Shown here one piece after another: positions 29,901 to 49,826 of a DNA stretch of 64,000 nt; the first letter of the stretch is position 1, and each line of letters begins with the position of its first letter. The notes under the pieces were generated by a model. It searched no databases. It had not been told where the DNA came from and was given only the letters and a program-made list of their open reading frames with translations. The stretch is from Clytia hemisphaerica. Its lineage: Eukaryota; Cnidaria; Hydrozoa; Leptothecata; Clytiidae. The translations under genes and the position numbers were made by a program. The DNA lies in the NCBI GenBank assembly GCA_902728285.1, contig CACVBU010000247.1, positions 1 to 64,000 of the forward strand, in the 5' to 3' direction.

Positions 29901-32900
29901 AGAATGGTCTGTGGAACAAAGTGACGCAGTTTGGATAAAATGCCATTTGACCTTCTAAGTTTTGCGGATAAATGATCAAAATGGAAAATTCCACGCTAGA
30001 CATTCATCGAGAAAAAGACCAAGATATTTGACACATTTCGAAAATTTCAAGACATGCCCATCAAGATTGAGATTCATTGTATATGGTACAGGTTTATTTT
30101 TACTTCTAAACAGGATAACCTCAGTTTTTGTAGTATTAAGAGAGATTTTGTTGGCACGAAGCCAAGAGGAGAGTCTGATTAAGTCAGAATTCACTTTCGT
30201 CTCAAGTGAATTTAGATTCGAATCGGAAGAGAGAAGACAGGTGTCGTCAGCAAAGAGGTTTGTTTCGCTATTCAGAATGGCTTCAGGAATGTCATTTATA
30301 TATATTAGAAAAAGTAGAGGCCCTAGGACAGAGCCCTGGGGGACTCCGTGTCTGATAGATCGTTTTGAGGAATCATGCCCAGAAATTGAAACATATTGTT
30401 TCCTCTCAGTCAGGTAAGATCGAAACCAGAGGTTCGCAACGCCACGTTATAGTTTATGCCATAGTGATGAAGTTTGATAGAAGAATTTCATGATCTACTG
30501 TATCGAAAGCTTTTTGAAGATCAATGAATACCCCGCAAGAATACAACCCTTTGTCAATATTTGACCGAATTTTTTCTGTTAGATTTATTAATGCGTGAGA
30601 AGTAGAGTGTTTAGTACGGAATCCAAATTGGTTTTTGAGGATGCTGTTGTTAATGTTAAGAAAATTTACAACTCTGAATTTAATTAATTTTTCAAAAATT
30701 TTATCAATATTAGAGAGGAGCGAAATTGGTCTAAAGTTGTTAGGATCGTATGGGGAACCTTTATTTTTATACACGGGTATTACTTTTGCTACTTTAAGAG
30801 TTGTTATGAACTTGCCTGTCTGTATTGATAAATTGAAAATTTTAGCAGGAGTTGAGCTACCTCACCAAGAACCGATTTTAAGATTTTTGGTGGAATGCTG
30901 AATGGTCCATTTGCCTTAGGTTTAAGAGCATTGATAATTTTTACGATTTCCTCAGCTTGTATCTCCTCGAAAAACAGAGAATTTATTGGTGAATTTACAA
31001 GAGTTTGATGAAAGTTCGCTTCCTCATTATTAACATTTATAGTTTGACGTATTTTATCCGCTATTGAAGTAAAATATTTATTCAATTCCTCGCTTGTTAC
31101 TTTAGGATCAGATGTTACTTGTCCGTCAATATTTAGAGATATTGTTGTGCTACTACGGCATTTTTTACTTTCGATCAATTCGTATACGCCTTTCCAGATA
31201 TTTTTACTGTTCTTTATATTTGTTTGAAAGTACTTTTTATAATGGTTATTCTTACTTCTTCCCTCCCTAAGGTTTTTAAAATAATCCCTCTCCCCTTGAA
31301 ATTTTTTTTTGATTTTTTGGATCTACCCCGGTGGAGGTCCTTTAAATTAACCTGTGTTTGTTCGTTCGTCCGTTCGTCTGTTACCAACTTTTCTCAGGAT
31401 TGAATCATAGGAATCTTTTGATTTTTGGTACAAAGGTGCAAAATGGTAGTGGCCAAAATGTGACGGAGCCCGATTTTCGAAAAAAAAAAATTTTTGGGCA
31501 AATTTGGGCCAAAAAACGGCTAAAAAACGGGTTTTTTGGACTTTGTGAAAATTGGATCATTAATTTTTTCTGATTTTTTGCATGAAAGTAGGGTACCATC
31601 ATAGGTAAAAGATGGCTTAAACTGATTTTTGCAAAAAAATTTTGTTGGCGCAAAAAACGCATGTTTATCTATAAGAATCACTATTAATAAGCATACATCA
31701 ACGTTCTTAGTCAAATTACTCAATTTTGTTATGAGATAGATGTTTTTTTTGCTCATGAGGGCTTACTTTTGAAGAATATGTGTGTTTAGACATGAAATTT
31801 TGGTTGCTTGGCGTTTTTTTATAGAAAAGCTGGCCAAATTCGATATTTTTTTATAAGCACATTAACAATTACTTAGGTATTAGCTTTTCTCGAGATGGGC
31901 TCTTTCATTCTTTATGATTTTTTGCACAAAGATGCATAACTATAAACCCTCGAATGTGATGTAGCCCAATTTTCGAAAAAAAAGTTTTTTGGGAAAATTT
32001 GGGCCAAAAAACGTCTAAAAAACAGGTTTTTTGGACTTTGTGAAAAATTGGATCATTAATTTTTTCTGATTTTTTGCTTCAAAGTAGGGTGCCATCATAG
32101 GTAAAAGATGGCTGAAGCAGATTTTTCCAAAAAAAAATTGTTGGCTCAAAAACCGCATGTTTATCTATAAGAATCACTATTAATAAGCATACATCAATGT
32201 TCTTAGTCAAATTACTCAATTTTTTTTATGAGATAGATGTTTTTTATTGCTCATGATGGCTTACTTTTAAAGAATATGTATGTTTAGACATGAAATTTTG
32301 GTTGCTTGGCATGTTTTTTTAGAAAAACTGGCCAAATTCAATATTTTTTATAAGCATATTATCAATTACTTAGGTGTTAGCTTTTCTCGAGATTGGCTCT
32401 TTCATTCTTTATGATTTTTTGCACAAAGATGCATAACTATAAACCCTCGAATGTGACGGAGGTCATTTGTTGAGAAAAAAAAATTTGAGGTAAATTTCAG
32501 CTAAAGAACGGCTAAAAAAGGGTTTTTTGGACTTTGTGAAATATTGGATCATTGTTTTTTTCTTTTTTCTGACTTTTTGCATGAAAGTAGGTAAAAGATG
32601 GCTCAAGCAGATTTTTGTAAAAAAAGAATTTTTCAGCTCAAAAAGCGCATCTTTATCTACAAGAATCACTATTAATAAGCATACATCAATGTTCTTAAAA
32701 TTACTGAATTTTTTGATGAGATATGTTTTTTTGCGCACGAAGTCTTGAATATGAAAGAATATTTCAAGATCATGAAATTTTGGTTCCTAAACGTTTTTTT
32801 TATAAGAAACAAACGACTAATTTTAATAGATCGTCACTATTTGTGTTCTGAATGATTGTTTAATGGTCACACTCCCGTAGATATCAATTATATATGTGTT

Positions 32901-37414: not shown

Positions 37415-37660
37415 TCATAGGCCCGACTGTAGCAAAAAAACCAAAATAATAGTGCCCAGGCCCTGAAAAGTGAAATGAAATAAACACCCCCAGACATTCA
37501 CCCAAGGAACAAGTGTACCAAATTTCAGCCAAATCCGACCATTTTTGAAGTCTCCAGGCTGCCCCAAAGATTTAGCTTCGTTTTGGCGAAAACTCGTCCA
37601 CAAGCCCAAAAATCAAAATTTTTGAAAAATGAAAAAAACACACCCCCAGATATTCACCCA
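37415..37660. repeat. Dispersed repeat with 'cacccccagatattcaccca'
   Basis: Two adjacent versions of a block with 'caca/cacccccagacattcacc' and 'ccaaatttcagccaaat' occur here, with a further relative at about 54430-54570. The foldback element at 37669 is inserted in it. Confidence 0.5.
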
Positions 37661-37668
37661 GAAAATCT

Positions 37669-39585
37669 GGTACATTCGCTGGAGTTAGGTATTCGGTATT
37701 CGGGATTCGGGATTCGCATTCGGGATTCGAAAAAGCTCAATAAAAACTTAACGAAAAAAGATATTAACTTGAAATAAAAAACGGATGCAAGCACACATAC
37801 TAAGGAATAAATCACAATAAAAAAAATTCAGAATATGAGCCCAGTTGTCACGTGACTATGGGAAATTCCCCTATTCGGGATTCAAATCATGTCAGGGACC
37901 TTTCTTCAAAAGCTCGCCAGTCGTCAGTAAATGGTTGAATTGACTTCAAATAAAAAACGGATGCAAGTTCACATGTCAAGGAAGATATTCCAAAAAAAAA
38001 TTCAGAATATGAGCTTAGTTGTCATGTGACTACGGGAATTCCCCTATTCGGGATTCAATTATTTCAGGGACCTTTTTCAAAAGCTTACCAGTCATCAGGA
38101 AATGGTTGGATTGACTCAAATAAAAACGGATGCAGTTCACATGTCAAGGAAAATATTCTAAAGAAACAATTCAGAATATGAGTTTAGTTTGTCACGTGAC
38201 TATGGGAAATTCCCCCCCCTATTGGGAGTTATTTCAATTTAGAGACTATTTTTATAAAGCTTACCAGTCATCAGGAATGGTTGGATTGACTTCAATAACA
38301 AACGGATGCAAGTCACATGTCAAGAAAAACATTCCAACAAAAAATTCCCAATGAGCCTAGTTGTCACGTGACTATGGGAAATTCCCCTTTTGGGGAGTTA
38401 TTTCAGTTTAGGGACCTTTTTTTAAAAAGCTCATAAAACTCAAGTAGAAAGGTATCGACTTCCAAATAACAAACGGATGCAAGTTCACATATCTGGGAAA
38501 ATATTCCAAAAAAAATTATTCAGATATGAGCTTAGTTGTCACGTGACTATGGGAAATTCCCTTTTCAAGGGTTCAATTAATTAGGGACCTTTCTTAAAAA
38601 TGATTTGATTGACTTCAAATAACAAACGGATGCAGTTCGCATGCTAAGGAACAAATTCCTAAAAAAATATTCAGAATATGAGCTTAGCTGTCACGTGACT
38701 AGGGAAATTCCCCTTTTTGGAGTTCTTCAGTTTATGGACCTTTTTTTGAAAAGCTCATAAAAACTCAGGAAGAAAGGTATCGACTTCAAACAACAAACGG
38801 ATGCAATTTCACATATCTGGAAAAATATTCCAAAAAAAATAATTCAGAATATGAGCTTAGTTGTCAAGTGACTACGGGAATTCCCCTATTCGGTTCAAAA
38901 TATTTCAGGGGACCTTTTTCAAAGCTTACCCGTCATCAGGAAATTGTTGGATTGATTTCAAATAACAAACGGATGCAAGTTCACATGTCAAGTAAGATAT
39001 TCCAAAAGAAATAATTCAGAATATGAGCTTAATTGTCAAGTGACTACAGGAAATTCCCCTATTCGGGATTCAAATTATTTCAGGGACCTTTTTCAAAAGC
39101 TTACCAGTCATCAGGAAATGTTTGGATTGACTTCAAATAAAAAACGGATGCAAGTTCACATGTCAAGGAAAATATTCCAAAGAAAACAATTCAGAATATG
39201 AGTTTAGTTGTCACGTGACTATGGGAAATTCCCCTATTTGGGAGTTATTTCAATTTAGAGACTATTTTTATTAAGCTTATCAGTCATCAGGAAATGGTTG
39301 GATTGACTTCAAATAACAAACGGATGCAAGTTCACATATCTGGGAAAATATTCCAAAAAAAATTATTCAGAATATGAGCTTAGTTGTCACGTGACTATGG
39401 GAAATTCCCCTTTTCAAGAGTTCAATTATTTTAGGGACCTTTCTTAAAAATGATTTGATTGACTTCAAATAACAAACGGATGCAAGTTCACATGCTAAGG
39501 AATAAATTCCAAAAAAATAATTCAGAATATGAGTTTAGTTGTCACGTGACTATGGGAAATTCCCCTTTTTGGGAGTTATTTCGAT
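37669..39585 (+). repeat. Left arm of foldback element: 11 tandem ~170-bp units
   Basis: Begins with ATTCGGGATTCGG-type short repeats, then 11 units. The anchor palindrome GTCACGTGAC (or one-base variants) sits at 37847, 38021, 38191, 38363, 38538, 38690, 38863, 39034, 39210, 39385 and 39541, giving spacings of 152-176 bp. Four bases later most units carry GGGAAATTCCC. Each unit also has AACGGATGCAAG and GATTGACTTCAAA. Confidence 0.9.
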
Positions 39586-42500
39586 GAAAAAAAGAAAACA
39601 AAAACAAAAACAAAAAAAAATATATTAGGTCAGAGTACTGCCGATAAGATTTATAAAGAAATAGAGACCTTAAGCTGTAACAGGGAGATAATGTAAATAA
39701 CGAAGTCAGATTTCTGAAGGTCAAAGAAGTCAAAAAATCGAGATGTGAATGAAATAGTTTTTTATTTCTATGATTTGGTACAACAGATAATATAGTTTTA
39801 TGGTTTACAACCCATTATCTTCTTGGATTATTGAGATTTTTTAAGATAATGTTTTTATATCAGATAATGTTTGTTGTTGTATGTCATGGATTTTAAGGAT
39901 CATCTGCTGCGTTTTGTTAGATTGAAGAGCTTTTAGGAGGTCATCAGTTGACTCAGATCAAAGACTTACAACCAAAACAAGACGTCTAAGCGCATAATTA
40001 TGCAAAATTATCTCATTGTTCGAACAATAAAAATAAATTTCCTTTGATCCGCACGTTAGTTGCCGACAAGAGTTAAAAAAATGGCCGCCAAAACTCGAAG
40101 GCCACCAAATTTGGAACTACTTGTCCATGTAATTTTGCTAATTATGGTCTAATTATCATGAAATATGTCAACAAATTGGATTGGTTTGATTTTAGAATAA
40201 TTATTCTTTGCATTTCTGCTCTTTGAACCTTGAACTTTGGCCAGAAGGAAGGAATTTCGCAAAAACAAAATGGCTGACTGGTTTCTGTGTATTTGCTTTA
40301 ATGACCCAAAGAATGGCTTTGAAATACTATGTTAGAGAATTTTTTGATGGTTAAAAATAATTTTCTAGCATTGTAATATGACCAAACTTTAAGTCCATAC
40401 CATTCTTTTTTGTGGCCTGGCTCTTATCAGACTGGCCTGGCTCAATGTTTTTGTGCTATTTTTTGTTAACTGTCAGACTGTGTTTTGTTGGAAATTAAGG
40501 TTTTCATTAGTTAGTTTACCTGGCTTTATGTTTGTTCAGATGAAAAGTATTCGGTTTAATATCGCTCATTTGATTTCGATATAACTTTTTTCAATTTATT
40601 TAGGTGTAAAATATATATAAATATAAAAAAACATCTAAATAATCAACCATAAATTCTGTATATATCCCTGCTCCTTGAAAAGGCATTTCAAAAACAGATG
40701 GGCGACTTCAAATCAAGGATATCTTCAACAGACAAGATGTATTGTGATTAGAATTGAAATATATACATCTAACACCCAATGCTGAAAAATATTTTGTCGC
40801 AATGATGGTTTTTGAATCATAACTTTAATTTTCTGGCTATTTTATTATAACATCGAATCAATTTGTCACTGGATGGATTCTTTGGATATCTTGATATATG
40901 TGGCTTGGCTGGTAGACTTGGTAGATTAGAATTATCAACAGCGATGATGAAAAGATTGCTACTAACACTAACAATATTTGGAATATCTTAAAATTTGGAT
41001 AATGTATTGTTCACACTGTCACTAGAGACAGAGCTCACAGCAGGCTACAAACTGAAATTGTGAGGGTTATTGCATCAGTATATATATGAAAATATTTGGT
41101 ACCCCAACCGTAAAATTGTGATGTATGTCATTTGTAGAAAGTGGATTAAAATATACAATTGATTATGCCTGGGTCATTGACTAAATAAGCGCCATCTGCC
41201 ATCTCATGGACAGAATCTGAGATTTACAAAAATAATGTACATTCAATTGGCTAAAAATGGAAAGAGTATTGAATGCTTGGATATTAATTTTAAAACAGTG
41301 TGCCAGATTTTTAATTTGGCAAGACTGGTTTCTGGCAAATGAAAAAACTATTGCTTGTAGATAATTTTGAACAAATTATAGAAAGCAAACAGAAGCAAAC
41401 TATATAAATTAATCAGTCAGTCATCATAATTAATTTTGAGAGGTAATTCTGGAGGTAGTTCTTAATATTGTGAAATGCTCTGACTGTTAATACCAAAATT
41501 ATTTGTTTGTGTAACTATTTCAATGTAGCGTAAGGGACTTACTGTCTATACTTTGTCATCTAAGTATCATTTTCAATCGTCAATTAATCCTCAGAAAAAA
41601 ATAAATCGGTCATCTATTTTCAAAAGAATAATTGCCTATTTTTGTCTATTATTGTATTGTTGATTGTGTATTTGAAAATTGTTTTTTGTTTGTTTCTCAG
41701 TATTACCAAACAATAAATTAATGATTTTGTATTTTTTGAATAGATTGTGTTATGCCAGTTAACTAGGGTCCTGGTTAAAGATATGTTACATGAATGAGTT
41801 ACTTTGTTCATTTGTGTCCAGACATTTTTTTTACAAATCTCGAGACTGATAGTTGTTAACAAAAATTACGAGTATTTTTGTGATTTTGGTCTTGATTGGA
41901 AATTGTTGACAAATTCTGAAAATTTTCAAATACTTTGAGGGAACCTTTTCTGGCGGGAACTAATTTTGGCAGGCAGCAAATATCCTAAATTTTTTTAATT
42001 TTGGTCGGAACTTATTTTGGCGAATAGTGAATTTTTTTCATTTTGGCGAATGACAGCGTAAATCTCTTCTATTTTGCCTTATTTTGAGCAATTTTGATGA
42101 ATTTCAGGGTTATTTAGGCAAGGAAACAAAAAATTTAATTTTGGCGGGAACTTATTTTGGCGAGTGAGCAAAATATTTAATTTTGGCAGGAACGAACTTT
42201 GGCGAATTTCGTCTAAATTCCCAAAATTAGTTCCCTTAAAGGTACTTATTTTCAAAATAGGAAGTGATGAGTCAAAACAATCCCATCATTTTTCATTAAA
42301 TTTTTCACATTTTTATGGTACTGTAATTTTTATCAAAAGGTGTCATAAAAAAGTGAAATGATCAAACAGGCATTAAAAATAACAGGAGACTTGTTAAAAT
42401 TTTATGTCAGAATCTCCTCAAAAGTTTGGATCAAAATATTGAAAATTGAGTGAAAAAAATTCTTTAATTTTTCAATTCAATTATCAGTCTTTGACCCAAA

Positions 42501-42638
42501 CATTGATTCTATCTTTTCAAAACAATATAATTAAAAAAAATTTTAGAATAAAAAAAACTTATACACTGGGCAGTATCTTTGTTTAAAAGAAAAATTTAAA
42601 ACTTTTAATAAAATAAGGTCCATAAAAGGCTCTAACTA

Positions 42639-42733
42639 CTCTTGGGTACCTAAATAAATGGGGGTTTGGAATAAGCCAGATAGGATAATTTATTTATTAG
42701 CGAGGGTGGGGAAGCTTATTAGGTACCCAAAAG
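42639..42733. mobile_element. 95-bp MITE, TA-flanked
   Basis: Ends CTCTTGGGTACCTAA and TTAGGTACCCAAAAG are inverted; TA lies on each side. Related to the element at 53565-53837, which has the same ends. Confidence 0.65.
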
Positions 42734-44098
42734 TACAGTTTTATATCGTAGATATAGTTTTAGTAAAATAGAGTTTAAAAAATGTTTGTATGTCATTCAA
42801 GTCCATCGTAAAATATCACGATTCCCTCTAGTTGAGTGTCTACTACCATGATTATTATTTCTCCATTCCAATATTGATATTAACACATATAGGTATATTA
42901 AAATAGTCAATCAACATCTTGTATATATGTACTATGTCATTCAAAATACCAAAAATATTCTCAAGTTTCCAATCAATTTAATTGAATGTCAAGAGTATGA
43001 ATTCAATAAGATTGGGTTAATCATTCCACCATTCAAGAAATCAGCCTTTTTAGAGTTTCATATATCTGCAAGTTTTGCAAACACCAAAGTTAAGTAGAAA
43101 AGTGATCAGCCATAATAAATGATAATCAAAACATTCACAACATATTAGTTCTTTAACTCATGTGTCTTTTGGTACTGTAGGCCAGGTCGTCCTCAAAAGT
43201 TTAAAAGTGTCCTAAAGTCTTTGAAGCTCATCATTTGATCATCTTTGAGTACATCTTTCTGGTTTCCAATAGTTGTTGACGATCAACTGTTAGATATGAA
43301 GGCAGTTTGATGTTGATATATCAGGCTGTCGGGTTTCCTCTAGCACTTGAGTAGAGGAGCCCATATCATAAAACTTCAATTTGTATCTTTCTGTTACGAA
43401 GATGATTTGATTGCCAGTAAAACATTTTCACATTCAGAGTTTCTAATTTTCTAATCAAAGTTTTTCTGCTTCAGCCATTTTGAAAATTTCGACGAAAATT
43501 CTGAGAAATTAGTAATATTGATTATTTTTGTTGACTCGGCAAAACAATTGTTTTTATTGCTGACGCGGCAAAATTGATTGTTTTCGTTCACTAATTATGC
43601 GGAAACCATGTAGATATAGTTTATTGTATTAGAAAAACAATAACACGCTATCTGATGAGATCTAACTAAGGTGAAACAATGGTTAGACGTCTTGTTTTGG
43701 TTATAAGTCTTTGCTCAGATCTACTCAGATAAAGTTTTCGACCCTTTAATTCAATAACTTCTCGTAGATCAGCGGGCCATGTAGTATCAATATTATGTAA
43801 GATACTACATCCTCAAGCTCAGTAGTTATTTTAAAAGTATCTCTAATTAAATGGTTTCATAAATTATTTTGATTACTCTATTTGTTGATGTAAAGGTCCT
43901 TAATTGGTATAGTCTAAAATAAGATAAAGATATATTCGTACCATCTAACATTTTTTCAAAGTGATGTCCTTCTTCTTCTACAGCAATTTTTAAAAAGGAT
44001 GATGATATTTTCATGCCAGAATTCAGGCACGTTTACAAGGGTCGTTCTGTGGTCCTTGTAATTCTATTGTTTGATGTTTTAGGAAGACGTAATGTTTT

Positions 44099-45993
44099 AG
44101 GGGGCGTACGGGATATCGGTACATCGGTATTGGCCTTTTTTTAGACCGGTAAATCGGTATTAGAGGAAAAAATTGATCGGTAATCGGTATTTTAAGACAA
44201 TCTCGGTATCGGTAAGAGACCTTTTTTATCTCGGTATTTCGGTATTTTTGGTCAACTATCGGTATCGACCACCTCCTTGGTATCGAAGATCATGAGCCAT
44301 TGCGCTCCTTCACCAATTTTGGTGAATACACTATATTTAAAACAAAATATCTCAAATTATTTGCTCGCTTCGCTCGCACTAGCCTCTTCGAATTCTTCTT
44401 GATAAGTATCAAATTCTCATCGCTTTTTTAGGGTTTATGCTCTATGGTTGCGGATGACTTTAAAAAATTGTCCATACGGCCAAAGCCTCCTTTTCCATGT
44501 GAATATATGAACGATATGTTCTAAGCACTCACACGTAAATTAGTACAAATTAAGGAACACTCGGAGACGCCAATTTTAAGAATCGTGGCTGCAATTTTCA
44601 TAAGGCAAGAGTCTCAGCCTGGGGTCTGCTTGACACATTTCCTGCCGTGAATACAGTTGACGCTCTCTAAACGATCTATTTTGGCGTTTTGGCAGGGGGT
44701 CACGCCTCCCCAAGTGGAGTTTTGAACGCCCAACTCTTAAAATTACCCTAAAATGCGCTTTAAATTGCGCCCAAAGACCAGAAATAACTTGAAAAATCAT
44801 GATTTTTTTTTTGCTCCCTTCGCTCGCAATAAAGTTATAAGACAATTTTTGAAGGAAGATCTAACTGCGCCCCACGACCAATTTGGTGAAAACAATATTC
44901 AAAACAAAAACTCACAATTTTTTTCTTGTTTCATTCGCACGCACTAGCTTCCTTCAATTTTTTGATCTAGAGATTATTAAAGAGTATTAAATTTGTATCT
45001 TTATTCGTTACTTTCTACTATTCGACATTCTATCACTCGATAAGCTCCCATTTTCGATGAAAGTTCGAGGTTCCTTGATGGTTTTCCGTTCTCTTATTCA
45101 ATTTTTAGCATCTTGCTAAACTTTTGGTTATATTTAAGCTCTGTTTTGGAAAAAAATCGCGTCAAACAGAGTTAACTTTTTCCACTGACTAATAGAGAAA
45201 GCATGACCATGGTCGTGTTTTTTGTTCTTTTTTGTTCAATGTCATTATACTGTAATTGGCTTCACTCAATACACCCCTGTCTCAGTGCCCCGGTAGAACT
45301 TTTTCCCTCAGTGGGGATGAAAATTTCTATCAAAATGCCAATGGGGATAGAAAATTTATTGTTTCCAGCTCGAAAATTCCAGTGGGGATGGTTTTGGAGT
45401 GCAATTTTTTACATTTAGTTTTCAATGGGGATAAAATCATAGAGCAATTTCGCAGTGGGGTTGAAATTGTAGGATATTTTTCCACCGGGGACGATTTTTT
45501 GGCCTATTTTTCCACCGGGGTGGGGGGTCCACTGGGTCTGTGACACAGGGGTGTATCAATCCATCTCGATGAGCAATGTCGCAATTTTTTCTTGCTCGCT
45601 TCGCTCGCGTATTTCCTAAATGTTTCTAAAATGACCTGAATTTTAACTTCAATTTTTGGTATACGAATGCAACCAAAAAATGGGCGCCAGAATAAGCATA
45701 CAAGGCGCCTTAAGCCAAAATTCTACTTTTACCTGCCCATCCTTGATCTACCCACCACGCTACTGTTTGGTAATCGTCATAGAGACTTTGGATGGTGACA
45801 AACCCAACCTTTATCGTCCACACGTACCCAGCACCCATATTTGCCTAATTCCCCCCTCCGGGAGATAAGTACCTGAAAAATTGGGAAAAATTGACCGGTA
45901 TCGGTATTTGAACGAAAAATTTATCGGTATATCGGTAATTGAGAAAAAAAGTGATCGGTATATCGGTATTACGAAGGCCCGTACGCCCCCCAC
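44099..45993. mobile_element. Nested CGGTAT-rich element flanked by a 22-bp direct repeat
   Basis: Ends contain the inverted pair GGGGGCGTACGGG and CCCGTACGCCCCC. Outside lie identical 22-bp direct repeats, 44077-44098 and 45994-46015, which begin TTTTAGGAAGACG and end AATGTTTT. Both subterminal regions are dense in (AT)CGGTAT repeats. The string CTTCGCTCGC recurs inside (near 44365, 44818, 45600). It harbours a further MITE at 45269-45556. No coding frame recognised; superfamily unknown. Confidence 0.7.
45269..45556 (+). mobile_element. MITE with ATACACCCCTGT ends
   Basis: 288 bp with perfect inverted ends ATACACCCCTGT and ACAGGGGTGTAT, and internal repeats of (cag/aat)TGGGGAT. Related to the diverged copy in CPA-3 intron 2. 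Confidence 0.7.
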
Positions 45994-46654
45994 TTTTAGG
46001 AAGACGTAATGTTTTGCTTTCGCTATTCTTATTTGTTCGCTGTAATTTGATTGGCAGTTGCCCATCTTCTATTTATTCAACTCTCCGATTGTAGTTGTTG
46101 ATTGCCAGTTGTTATGTTTGATTGACAGGGAGTTTTTTCAGGTTCGGAGGGAGTTTTTCCGAGAATTTATTATGAATTATTTTTTACTTATGGTAAGTGA
46201 TTAGTTGGTTAATTTAGTGGAGGGTCTATGCGTGTATATGAAGAGAAGGAAGGGGCGTTAAAAAGGTAGCTTGGGCGTAGAGAAAAATGAGACAGAATAA
46301 TAGTGGATGAAATAGATGATGATGTATGAGACACAAAAGGGGGTAAAATGATCTATGGGAAAATTTGAAAGATTTGACGTTCTGATGTTGAGACAACATT
46401 GTTTGGACGTTATAACAACGTTCATTACCTGTTGGGTTTATTACGGTTCACTCGAGACAATGCATTTCTTTTGTTATTTGGACCCATATATAGGAACATT
46501 AACAAGAGCATCTAAGGCTGAAAATGGTTGAAAAAAAAGAACATTCAGCCTCAATCAAAATTTAGGTGTTCTAATAAAAGAAACATGAATGTCCTTCAAA
46601 GAAAAATAAGAAAACGCTAATGAAGTAAATCCATGATCAATCCATGGTAATCTT

Positions 46655-48791
46655 TTAAAAAAGGTCTCTAAATTGAAATAACTCCAAAAAAGGGGAACTT
46701 CCCATAGTCACGTGACAACTAAGCTCATGCTTTGAATAATTAATTTTGGAATACTTTCCTTGACATGTGAACTTGCATCCGTTTTTTATTTGAAGTCAAT
46801 CCAACCACTTTCTGATGACTGGTAAGCTTTTTAAAAAAGGTCTAAAAATTAAAATAACTCCCAAATAGGGGAATTTCCCATAGTCACGTGACAACTAAGC
46901 TCATATTCTGAATAATTATTTTTGGAATATTTACCCAGATATGTGAACTTGCATCCGTTTGTTATTTGAAGTCGATACCTTTCTTCCTTGAGTTTTTATA
47001 AGCTTTTCAAAAAAGGTCCCTAAACTGAAATAACTCCCAAAAAGGGGAATTTCCCATAGTCACGTGACAACTAAGCTCATATTCTGAATTATTTTTTTTG
47101 GAATATTTTTCCAGATATGTGAACTTGCATCCGTTTGTTATTTGAAGTCGATACCTTTCTTCCTTGAGTCTTTATGAGCTTTTCAAAAAAGGTCCCTAAA
47201 CTGAAATAACTCCCAAAAAGGGGAATTTCCCATAGTCACGTGACAACTAAGCTCATATTCTGAATTATTTTTTTTGGAATATTTTCCCAGATATGTGAAC
47301 TTGCATCCGTTTGTTATTTGAAGTCGATACCTTTCTTCCTTGAGTTTTTATGAGCTTTTCAAAAAAGGTCCATAAACTGAAATAACTCCCAAAAAGGGGA
47401 ATTTCCCATAGTCACGTGACAGCTAAGCTCATATTCTGAATTAATTTTTTTGGAATTTGTTCCTTAGCATGCGAACTTGCATCCGTTTGTTATTTGAAGT
47501 CAATCAAATCATTTTTAAGAAAGGTCCCTAAAATAATTGAACTTTTGAAAAGGGGAATTTCCCATAGTCACGTGTCAACTAAGCTCATATTCTGAATAAT
47601 TTTTTTTGGAATATTTTCCCAGATATGTGAACTTGCATCCGTTTGTTATTTGAAGTCGATACCTTTCTTCCTTGAGCTTTTATGAGCTTTTCAAAAAAGG
47701 TCCATAAACTGAAATAACTCCCAAAAAGGGGAATTTCCCATAGTCACGTGACAGCTAAGCTCATATTCTGAATTGTTTTTTTTGGAACTTGTTCCTTAGC
47801 ATGCGAACTTGCATCCGTTTGTTATTTGAAGTCAATCAAATCATTTTTAAGAAAGGTCCCTAAAATAATTGAACTCTTGAAAAGGGGAATTTCCCATAGT
47901 CACGTGACAACTAAGCTCATATTCTGAATAATTTTTTTGGAATATTTTCCCAGATATGTGAACTTGCATCCGTTTGTTATTTGAAGTCGATACCTTTCTT
48001 ACTTGAGTTTTTATGAGCTTTTCAAAAAAGGTCCCTAAACTGAAATAACTCCCAAAAAGGGGAATTTCCCATAGTCACGTGACAACTAAGCTCATATTCG
48101 GAATTTTCTTTGTTGGAATGTTTTTCTTGACATGTGAACTTGCATCCGTTTGTTATTTGAAGTCAATCCAACCATTTCCTGATGACTGGTAAGCTTAATA
48201 AAAATAGTCTCTAAATTGAAATAACTCCCAAATAGGGGAATTTCCCATAGTCACGTGACAACTAAACTCATATTCTGAATTGTTTTCTTTGGAATATTTT
48301 CCTTGACATGTGAACTTGCATCCGTTTTTTATTTGAAGTCAATCCAACCATTTCCTGATGACTGGTAAGCTTTTGAAAAAGGTCCCTGAAATAATTTGAA
48401 TCCCGAATAGGGGAATTTCCCGTAGTCACATGACAACTAAGCTCAAATTCTGAATTTATTTTTTTGGAATATCTTCCTTGACATGTGAACTTGCATCCGT
48501 TTTTTATTTGATGAAGTCAATTCAACCATTTAGTGACGACTGGCGAGCTTTTGAAGAAAGGTCCCTGACATGATTTGAATCCCGAATAGGGGAATTTCCC
48601 ATAGTCACGTGACAACTGAGCTCATATTCTGAATTTTTTTTATTGGGATTTATTCCTTAGTATGTGTGCTTGCATCCGTTTTTTATTTCAAGTTAATATC
48701 TTTTTTCGTTAAGTTTTTATTGAGCTTTTTCGAATCCCGAATGCGAATCCCGAATCCCGAATACCGAATACCTAACTCCAACGAATCTACC
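46655..48791 (-). repeat. Right arm of foldback element: 12 tandem ~170-bp units
   Basis: Inverted relative to the left arm. GTCACGTGAC or close variants sit at 46707, 46883, 47059, 47235, 47411, 47567, 47743, 47899, 48074, 48250, 48425 and 48604 (spacings 156-179 bp), each preceded by GGGAATTTCCC-type palindromes. Ends in CGAATCCCGAAT short repeats that mirror the left end. Confidence 0.9.
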
Positions 48792-49218
48792 AGAAAATCT
48801 TTGTACATTGTGGGTGGAGGATAAATTGGATATTTTGTCCGGGGTTAGAAAAGTCTGCAAAATTTTACTTGCTTTATGGGCAAACTTGCTCTGTTTAACA
48901 ACAAAATTAGATAAAAATTGCATATAACTCACTCTAGCTTCTTGGTTGTCTGTACACAAACCCGATTCTACGGCTAATTTCAAAATTCATTCCCGTACTT
49001 CGCTACGATAATCGTGAGATACACTCTGGTACAGAGTAGCTTCTTGGATATTGAAAATAAGTTATGAAAATGGGGTATAGGAAACTTTCTACACCTAATA
49101 CCGTTCAGAAAAATGCAGATACATCTGTGACTTTAGAGGATGGGTAAAAGATATAGCATCTTTAAGGTCAACCCGTATTTTTAGTGTGGTCGTGTAACAA
49201 AAATACAGGCTGTTTGTA

Positions 49219-49826
49219 GGAAAAAAATAAGATCTCCAGACCTTCTCTATAGGATGCTTATACCTCAGGAAAAAATCCCCTAAAATCCCACTGGTGGAAA
49301 ATCCCTTTTTTGGGTTATTTCTATTTTCCCCAGGCAAAATCCTAAGGGCGAAATTTTTTGAAAATTTCAAACTCATTTTTAGACATTATCCTGCATTATC
49401 AAGTATACCATTCGAAAGCTCTCGAAAACTGTATAAAAGACTTTTAAACGGTTATAGCCGATTTCCTTACCTAACTCGAGATATTTCATGCGCAAGTTCC
49501 ACTTTTCGTCACATTTTGGTCTAAAATTGACCATATATAGCATCTTCTGCGTGAATTATCTTGAGTTAGGTAATGAAATCGTCTATACCCGTTTGAAAGT
49601 CTTCTATATAGTTTTTCGAGAGCTTTCGAATGGTATACTTGATAATGTCTGAAAATGAGTTTGAAATTTTCAAAAAATTTTGCCCTTAGGGTTTTGCCTG
49701 GGGAAAAAAGAAATGTCCCAAAAAAAGGATGTTCCACCAGTGGGATTTTAAGGGATTTTTTCCTGAGGCATAACCATCCTATAGAGAAGGTCTGGAGAAA
49801 GTTTCAGCTGGATCTTATTTTTTCCC
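49219..49826. repeat. 608-bp hairpin element
   Basis: Near-perfect inverted repeat with ~260-bp arms and a loop near 49475-49560. The left arm includes CCAGACCTTCTCTATAGGAT and 'cctcaggaaaaaatccc'; the right arm has the complements. Apparent coding frames are mirror images on the two strands and so reflect the palindrome, not genes. Foldback MITE structure. Confidence 0.85.

Follow-up and report, generated by a model that had tools for sequence, protein, structure and literature searches.

A foldback transposon of Clytia hemisphaerica with arms of tandem units and coding relatives in the same genome

The element and its arms

The window analyzed here, 64,000 nt of the hydrozoan Clytia hemisphaerica (positions 1 to 64,000 of contig CACVBU010000247.1, forward strand), holds a DNA transposon of 11,123 bp at positions 37669 to 48791, a foldback element whose arms are arrays of tandem units in mirror orientation around a centre. 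The element begins GGTACATTCG.. and finishes ..CGAATCTACC, its outer 292 nt are 97% complementary between the two ends, and it is flanked on both sides by the exact 9-bp duplication AGAAAATCT, all in agreement with the foldback element proposed for these positions in the initial annotation of this DNA (Table 1). No transposase was found in the window copy: six open frames of its centre, two of them inside a later insertion, match no Pfam family at E values of up to 0.01 (four further frames in the same scan were outside the element), and Rfam and tRNA scans of the window gave no match. Since relatives with the same ends carry such a gene, the window copy is probably non-autonomous and moved in trans. 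Contigs are designated below by C plus a number, C177 being the contig of the window element.

The 11 units of the left arm and the 12 of the right, counted as in the initial annotation, are about 176 bp long and follow each other at 152 to 176 bp in the left arm and at 156 to 179 bp in the right, within the annotated range of 152 to 179 bp. Three short sites recur in them: GTCACGTGAC, which we take to fit the E-box consensus of USF/MITF/TFE-type basic helix-loop-helix leucine zipper (bHLH-zip) factors; GGGAAATTCCC, which we take to fit the kappaB consensus of Rel factors; and AAACGGATGCAAG, which to our knowledge fits no known factor. With up to one mismatch, GTCACGTGAC has 24 matches in the window (23 of them in the arms) against 0.47 expected from shuffling, and the array is thus not due to chance; for GGGAAATTCCC, 44 strand-counted matches compare with 1.46 expected. 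Two details of the annotated units had to be corrected. The first two sites, described as lying four bases apart, are separated by three bases in 257 of the 260 exact pairs in the stretches read (TAT in 221 of the 257), and the four-base pattern, which has no match in the genome (417 Mb in 951 contigs), was replaced by the three-base one. Nor is GGGAAATTCCC a perfect 11-bp palindrome: its length is odd (5+1+5), so that its centre base is not self-complementary.

Across the genome, the palindrome pair with three free bases occurs at 436 exact places, and the joint pattern of the two blocks AAACGGATGCAAG and GGGAAATTCCC, which stand about 81 bp apart within a unit, occurs at 428; the reversed control of the former and the control of the latter have none. 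Of 360 hits, 339 gave long rows, and these yielded 310 distinct units, of which 259 have an intact GTCACGTGAC, 266 an intact GGGAAATTCCC, and 226 both. The units repeat mostly every 174 to 177 bp and sometimes every 155 to 157 bp: 86% of 202 spacings fall at 170 to 180 bp (98 of them at 176) and 13% at 150 to 160 bp (18 at 156). Forward units precede reverse units in all ten elements read.

Copies and coding relatives in the genome

The 28-base end pattern, with up to two mismatches allowed, occurs at 72 genome places (none for the reversed control), which form 20 convergent pairs on the same contig. All 20 were checked, and 14 are bounded by exact 9-bp duplications of differing sequence: C177 (the window), C928, C753, C41, C355, C545, C250, C380, C869, C33, C154, C782, C796, and C564, the last with CAAACGTTG (9/9, right end placed at TACC). 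The family of copies anticipated by the annotation, with the same ends and 9-bp duplications, is thereby borne out. Partial duplications border C780 (8/9) and C558 (7/9). In C547, counted as a miss, ATGCCATGA stands on both sides as a possible 9-bp duplication if the right end is moved 11 bases outward; these eleven extra bases finish in TTACC. The outer 182 bp, used as a query, have at least 345 genome matches, and at least 40 places match it over its full length or lack a single base; of 176 candidates from the first look, 40 were scored. C41 looks like what an internal deletion would leave of a C187-like element, and the right arm of C355 seems to be split at 611150-616200 by some 5 kb that is either foreign or unread, which brings that copy to 18.9 kb.

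Two relatives of 22 to 25 kb, C187 and C558, have window-type ends and units around a DDE-like transposase gene, the transposase matches (C187:140732-142090 and C558:512751-514100) being enclosed by convergent ends. In C187, 25.2 kb lie between ends with 14 and 12 units, and the minus strand carries three frames, of 861 aa (with 42-bp coding repeats), 453 aa, and 667 aa, the last of which continues without a stop into L063:9513-9998. The 667-aa part contains a ubiquitin carboxyl-terminal hydrolase (USP) domain (PF00443, E=8.6e-21) and the part after it a ULP1 protease domain (PF02902, E=1.1e-6); both share one frame, downstream of the DDE core. We infer that these three frames and the ULP1 part belong to a single gene, whose frame changes are either introns or the mark of a broken copy. 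In C558, with convergent ends at 501147 and 523326 and four units per side within the outer kilobase read, the transposase is matched in pieces of 97%, 89%, and, over a short piece, 71%. The 453-aa frame of C187 has 33 matches in the genome (all 41 candidates scored), the next best being in C597 (71%) and C472 (60%); the former, at C597:505034-506311 (L074), is part of an open frame whose length is given as 3818 aa and which includes coding repeats and a masked part.

Six aligned long-frame homologues share an invariant D, D, C-x2-H, and E, preceded by a conserved C/C/C/H set ahead of the DDE core. The order D-D-CxxH-E, with CxxH between the second D and the E, is the signature of the transposases of Mutator-like elements (MULEs). 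Among PDB matches to a seven-sequence profile, WRKY transcription factor 1 ranks first (E=0.014, profile positions 406 to 454); its match spans Cys 421 and Cys 426, the second and third of the set, as well as His 452, and excludes the first Cys (393); PHD-type chains follow at E values of 0.044 and weaker. A PHD finger reaches 22.0 to 23.5 bits against a cut-off of 24 bits (E 5.6e-5 to 1.7e-4) in three of five homologues (L079, L082, L084), and none is present in the Pfam-scanned C187 pieces. Other searches returned little: the 453-aa frame has only two matches in a PDB sequence search (E 0.26 and 0.33) and the 667-aa frame none at 0.01, NCBIfam gave nothing above cut-off, Pfam found no family in frames L062:7744-8130, L064:2849-3367, and L063:4696-5217, and in virus and prokaryote collections none of 22, 94, and 76 transposase pattern stretches was confirmed. 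The palindrome pair has no match in the virus collection.

The 7-kb centre described in the annotation is present but not wholly original, because 3.75 kb of it (39960 to 43713) is missing from all four copies compared (C928, C355, C545, and C592); to judge from this alignment of copies, that segment is a later insertion outside the family core, presumably hAT-like from the size of its duplication. About 2.5 kb of the remaining centre is common to C355, C928, and C545 at 94 to 98%, and the nested element with GGGGGCGTACGGG ends sits within this common core. Inside that nested element lie CGGTAT repeats, and the 22-bp direct repeats that flank it are unusually long. Elsewhere in the window there are RCC1, rhodopsin-type receptor, and reverse-transcriptase frames, a tandem array of 2.6 copies of a 496-bp unit (31457-32732), and, just beyond the right end of the element, an inverted repeat of 158 nt, 93% complementary with its halves 250 nt apart (49233-49390 and 49641-49798).

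Table 1. Parts of the window element and their positions in the window.
Feature	Positions	Strand	Remarks
Left copy of 9-bp target-site duplication, AGAAAATCT	37660-37668		Exact match to 48792-48800
Left terminus, GGTACATTCGCTGGAGTTAGGTATTCGG and short ATTCGGG repeats	37669-37751	+	28-base end pattern, 72 genome places at 2 mismatches or fewer
Left arm, 11 tandem units with AAACGGATGCAAG and GTCACGTGAC-TAT-GGGAAATTCCC	37752-39585	+	Inner edge approximate
Later nested insertion, ends AAAGACTTA../..TAAGTCTTTG, 7-8 bp flanking repeat CTCAGATC	39960-43713		Absent from 4 compared copies
Family core	43714-46644		93.8-97.9% identical to C355, C928, C545, and C592 in long shared pieces
Older nested element, GGGGGCGTACGGG inverted ends, 22-bp direct repeats TTTTAGGAAGACGTAATGTTTT	44099-45993 (with repeats, 44077-46015)		Read by eye
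Right arm, 12 tandem units, mirror orientation	46645-48708	-	Outer five units match their left-arm counterparts in the same order, at 97-99%
Right terminus, final bases ..CGAATCTACC	48709-48791	-	End-pattern match and complementarity to left end
Right copy of 9-bp target-site duplication, AGAAAATCT	48792-48800		Exact match to left copy

What the arm blocks may do

The explanation that we favor, with moderate confidence, is that of a non-autonomous foldback transposon whose transposase comes in trans from relatives like C187 and C558 and whose blocks load that transposase onto the arms. The 9-bp duplication would mark an insertion by cut and paste; the transposase would most likely be supplied by C187/C558-type relatives, in which gene, ends, and units are found together; and its N-terminal zinc-binding region, weakly WRKY-like, may bind AAACGGATGCAAG and/or GGGAAATTCCC. 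Many units would then load many transposase molecules per end, which could help to pair the two ends, with the arms lengthening and remaining alike through block duplication and conversion.

The choice of blocks rests on a diverged subfamily, whose ends read GAGTTCGG instead of GAGTTAGG, and which was sampled as four arm stretches (C564, C780, C604, and C107). These contain nine GGGAAWTTCCC places with up to one mismatch, six of them exact, and no E-box palindrome within two mismatches; the C564 units are oriented opposite to those of the window arms. Overall identity between subfamilies is 53.5%, measured on eight units of the window and C187 (hand-picked, with both palindromes largely intact) against five of nine diverged units (of the other four, three were too short on one side and the first of C780 was omitted). 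The top separate 11-column windows are GGGAAATTCCC (0.982) and ACGGATGCAAG (0.970), all units having been cut at the GGGAAATTCCC block, which favors that block; the lasting blocks, GGGAAATTCCC and AAACGGATGCAAG, are thus 11 to 13 bp of 97 to 98% identity, and the E-box columns, at 0.48, rank 85th of 147 windows. When the test was repeated with AAACGGATGCAA as the anchor, five of eight anchors had GGGAAWTTCCC (one mismatch allowed) at +77 to +82, an arrangement expected in simple shuffles with a chance of about 0.00025 per anchor. Because the two blocks are kept while the intervening sequence drifts, they look like recognition sites of the mobilizing protein, and it is plausible that AAACGGATGCAAG and GGGAAATTCCC are transposase recognition sites in a nucleosome-sized array. 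The annotation's suggestion that the palindrome pair might be bound therefore survives in part: GGGAAATTCCC is kept between subfamilies, the E-box palindrome is lost, and AAACGGATGCAAG, which had been missed, appears to be its lasting partner.

Several observations weigh against supply in trans and loading at the blocks. With the C187 gene spread over three frames and one stop inside the C558 match, neither gene copy looks intact. Six of the 20 pairs, both coding relatives included, have no exact duplication, and in a scripted check C592, C228, C187, and C547 had none at the expected position; moreover, one flank of C187 is an inverted copy of the other (97.7% over 1389 bp), so that this contig probably turns back within an arm. 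Relatives with a transposase gene between matching arms, for which the annotation proposed a search, are present, but the Pfam MULE domain PF10551 is unmatched at E values of up to 10 in the four proteins scanned. The C597 and C472 transposase relatives have no end among the 72 end-pattern places, and the window core has little in common with C187 outside the arms. As for the blocks, three of the eight AAACGGATGCAA anchors have no partner block, the first C780 unit has only AAACACAGATG at the expected position, and 451 bases of sequence behind a related end at C75 lack the unit array.

A less likely account is that the arms are homogenized by duplication and conversion and are otherwise inert, on the way to becoming satellite DNA as described for Tetris. 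Counted from the ends of the window element, units L1 to L5 agree one by one with R1 to R5 at 97 to 99.4% identity, with lower scores for the best matches within the left arm, and L8 to L11 resemble a second copy of L2, L3, L5, and L6; the window arms thus seem to grow by block duplication, with likeness maintained between both sides. Arm sizes vary widely, from 1 to 23 forward and from 5 to 16 reverse units in the ten elements read. Homogenization also makes conservation within the subfamily, where the palindrome block ranks second of 151 windows (the window shifted by one base ranks first) within some 46 bp of conserved sequence, weak evidence for function, because it can produce the same pattern. 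What it leaves unexplained is the persistence of blocks at 97 to 98% between subfamilies that agree at only 53.5% overall.

Somewhat less probable again is that the blocks serve mainly as sites for host factors, bHLH-zip proteins at the E-box and Rel proteins at the kappaB-like site, which would drive or time transcription of the element in place of binding its transposase. Both GTCACGTGAC and GGGAAATTCCC lie within the best-conserved unit stretch inside the subfamily; the diverged subfamily, however, loses the E-box and keeps AAACGGATGCAAG, and copies in which no gene was found retain the blocks nonetheless. Host factors remain a rival, strongest for the subfamily-specific E-box.

More speculative, and in our judgment improbable, is a chromatin-tuned docking array. 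The distance of about 81 bp between the two sites, which recur at about 176 or 156 bp, corresponds to about one turn of DNA around a nucleosome, so that a wrapped arm might bring the two sites of a unit side by side, and the deubiquitinase and SUMO-protease domains of the transposase might read and strip host chromatin marks while the ends are paired.

Finally, the inverted flanks of C187 and a right flank common to C228 and C355 indicate that some arms are probably misassembled, but exact 9-bp duplications of differing sequence at 14 of the 20 pairs make it very improbable that the inverted arms as such are an assembly artefact, a reading dropped for the window copy, which has its own duplication and is unaffected by these doubts.

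Comparison with known systems

The window family resembles a Mutator/Rehavkus-type foldback element. Its long inverted ends consist largely of tandem repeats and its arm length varies between copies, as in FB-type (foldback) elements, and the exact 9-bp duplications agree with the 8 to 11 bp, mostly 9 bp, of Mutator/MULE elements; the transposase is provisionally called Mutator/Rehavkus-like here, Pfam not establishing it as a MULE. Three other groups were considered and set aside. KDZ/Zisupton elements have a ULP1 domain and an 8-bp duplication, which differs from the 9 bp seen here; P/Galileo elements have duplications of 7 to 8 bp and a THAP domain, and no THAP appeared in Pfam scans of the C187 pieces and five homologues; and Ginger1 is defined by a 4-bp duplication of the CCGG/CCGT type (PMC2836005).

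Tandem units combined with 9-bp duplications are already known from foldback elements. Tetris of Drosophila virilis, likened by description and not by sequence, has long terminal inverted repeats (TIRs), tandem units of about 220 bp, duplications of 8 to 10 bp, and a variable middle with no apparent coding capacity; its autonomous copy was not found (PMC4079207), whereas in the present family a transposase gene lies between matching ends in two relatives. Tm1 of root-knot nematodes likewise has composite TIRs with tandem repeats, mostly 9-bp duplications, and coding and non-coding groups, but its repeat unit is 13 to 15 bp against 176 here and its Phantom-like transposase, of 496 aa, has no protease, a word absent from that paper (PMC3169594). 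Rehavkus shares the 9-bp duplications; its transposase has a PHD finger, for which there are here only the matches just below cut-off in distant relatives, and its minisatellite precedes the 3' TIR, whereas the 42-bp repeats here are coding and precede the transposase core. Its arms measure 26 to 400 bp against kilobases here, and the paper mentions no protease domains (PMC6446971).

The protease domains are not new in kind either: ULP1 has been described in Mutator elements (from hydra, lancelet, and plants), PHD together with ULP1 has been published as well, and one transposase, that of Trichomonas, has a C19 (USP) domain (PMC2836005). ULP1 Mutator elements and Ginger1 resemble the coding relatives, by description, in having ULP1, some with PHD, behind a DDE transposase; in the passages that describe them, USP and ULP1 do not occur together, and Ginger1 differs further in its 4-bp duplications and Gypsy-type integrase (PMC2836005). 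A single frame with both USP and ULP1 after a DDE core agrees with the published proposal that ubiquitin and SUMO are involved in transposition (PMC2836005). Neither this combination behind one DDE core nor the window unit sequence and its two-block footprint kept between subfamilies was found in the literature searched, which included few subscription papers and excluded Repbase.

The role of tandem repeats in foldback arms is an open question: Marzo et al. 2013 describe a binding function for the repeats of Foldback and Phantom as untested (PMC3688188). With two short candidate sites identified by comparison, natural copies of varied unit number, and coding relatives in the same genome, the present family makes the question testable. 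The mechanism proposed here has a parallel in Galileo, a P-superfamily element with a THAP domain and in that respect unlike the window family, in whose long TIR tandem repeats hold extra transposase-binding sites by electrophoretic mobility shift assay (PMC3688188). Muta1 of Aedes, with 12-bp repeats and a 504-aa transposase, differs in scale, but it too is of foldback type, a MULE whose subterminal repeats are in tandem and whose non-autonomous derivatives, variable in their cores, were moved in yeast by Muta1 transposase (PMC5225508).

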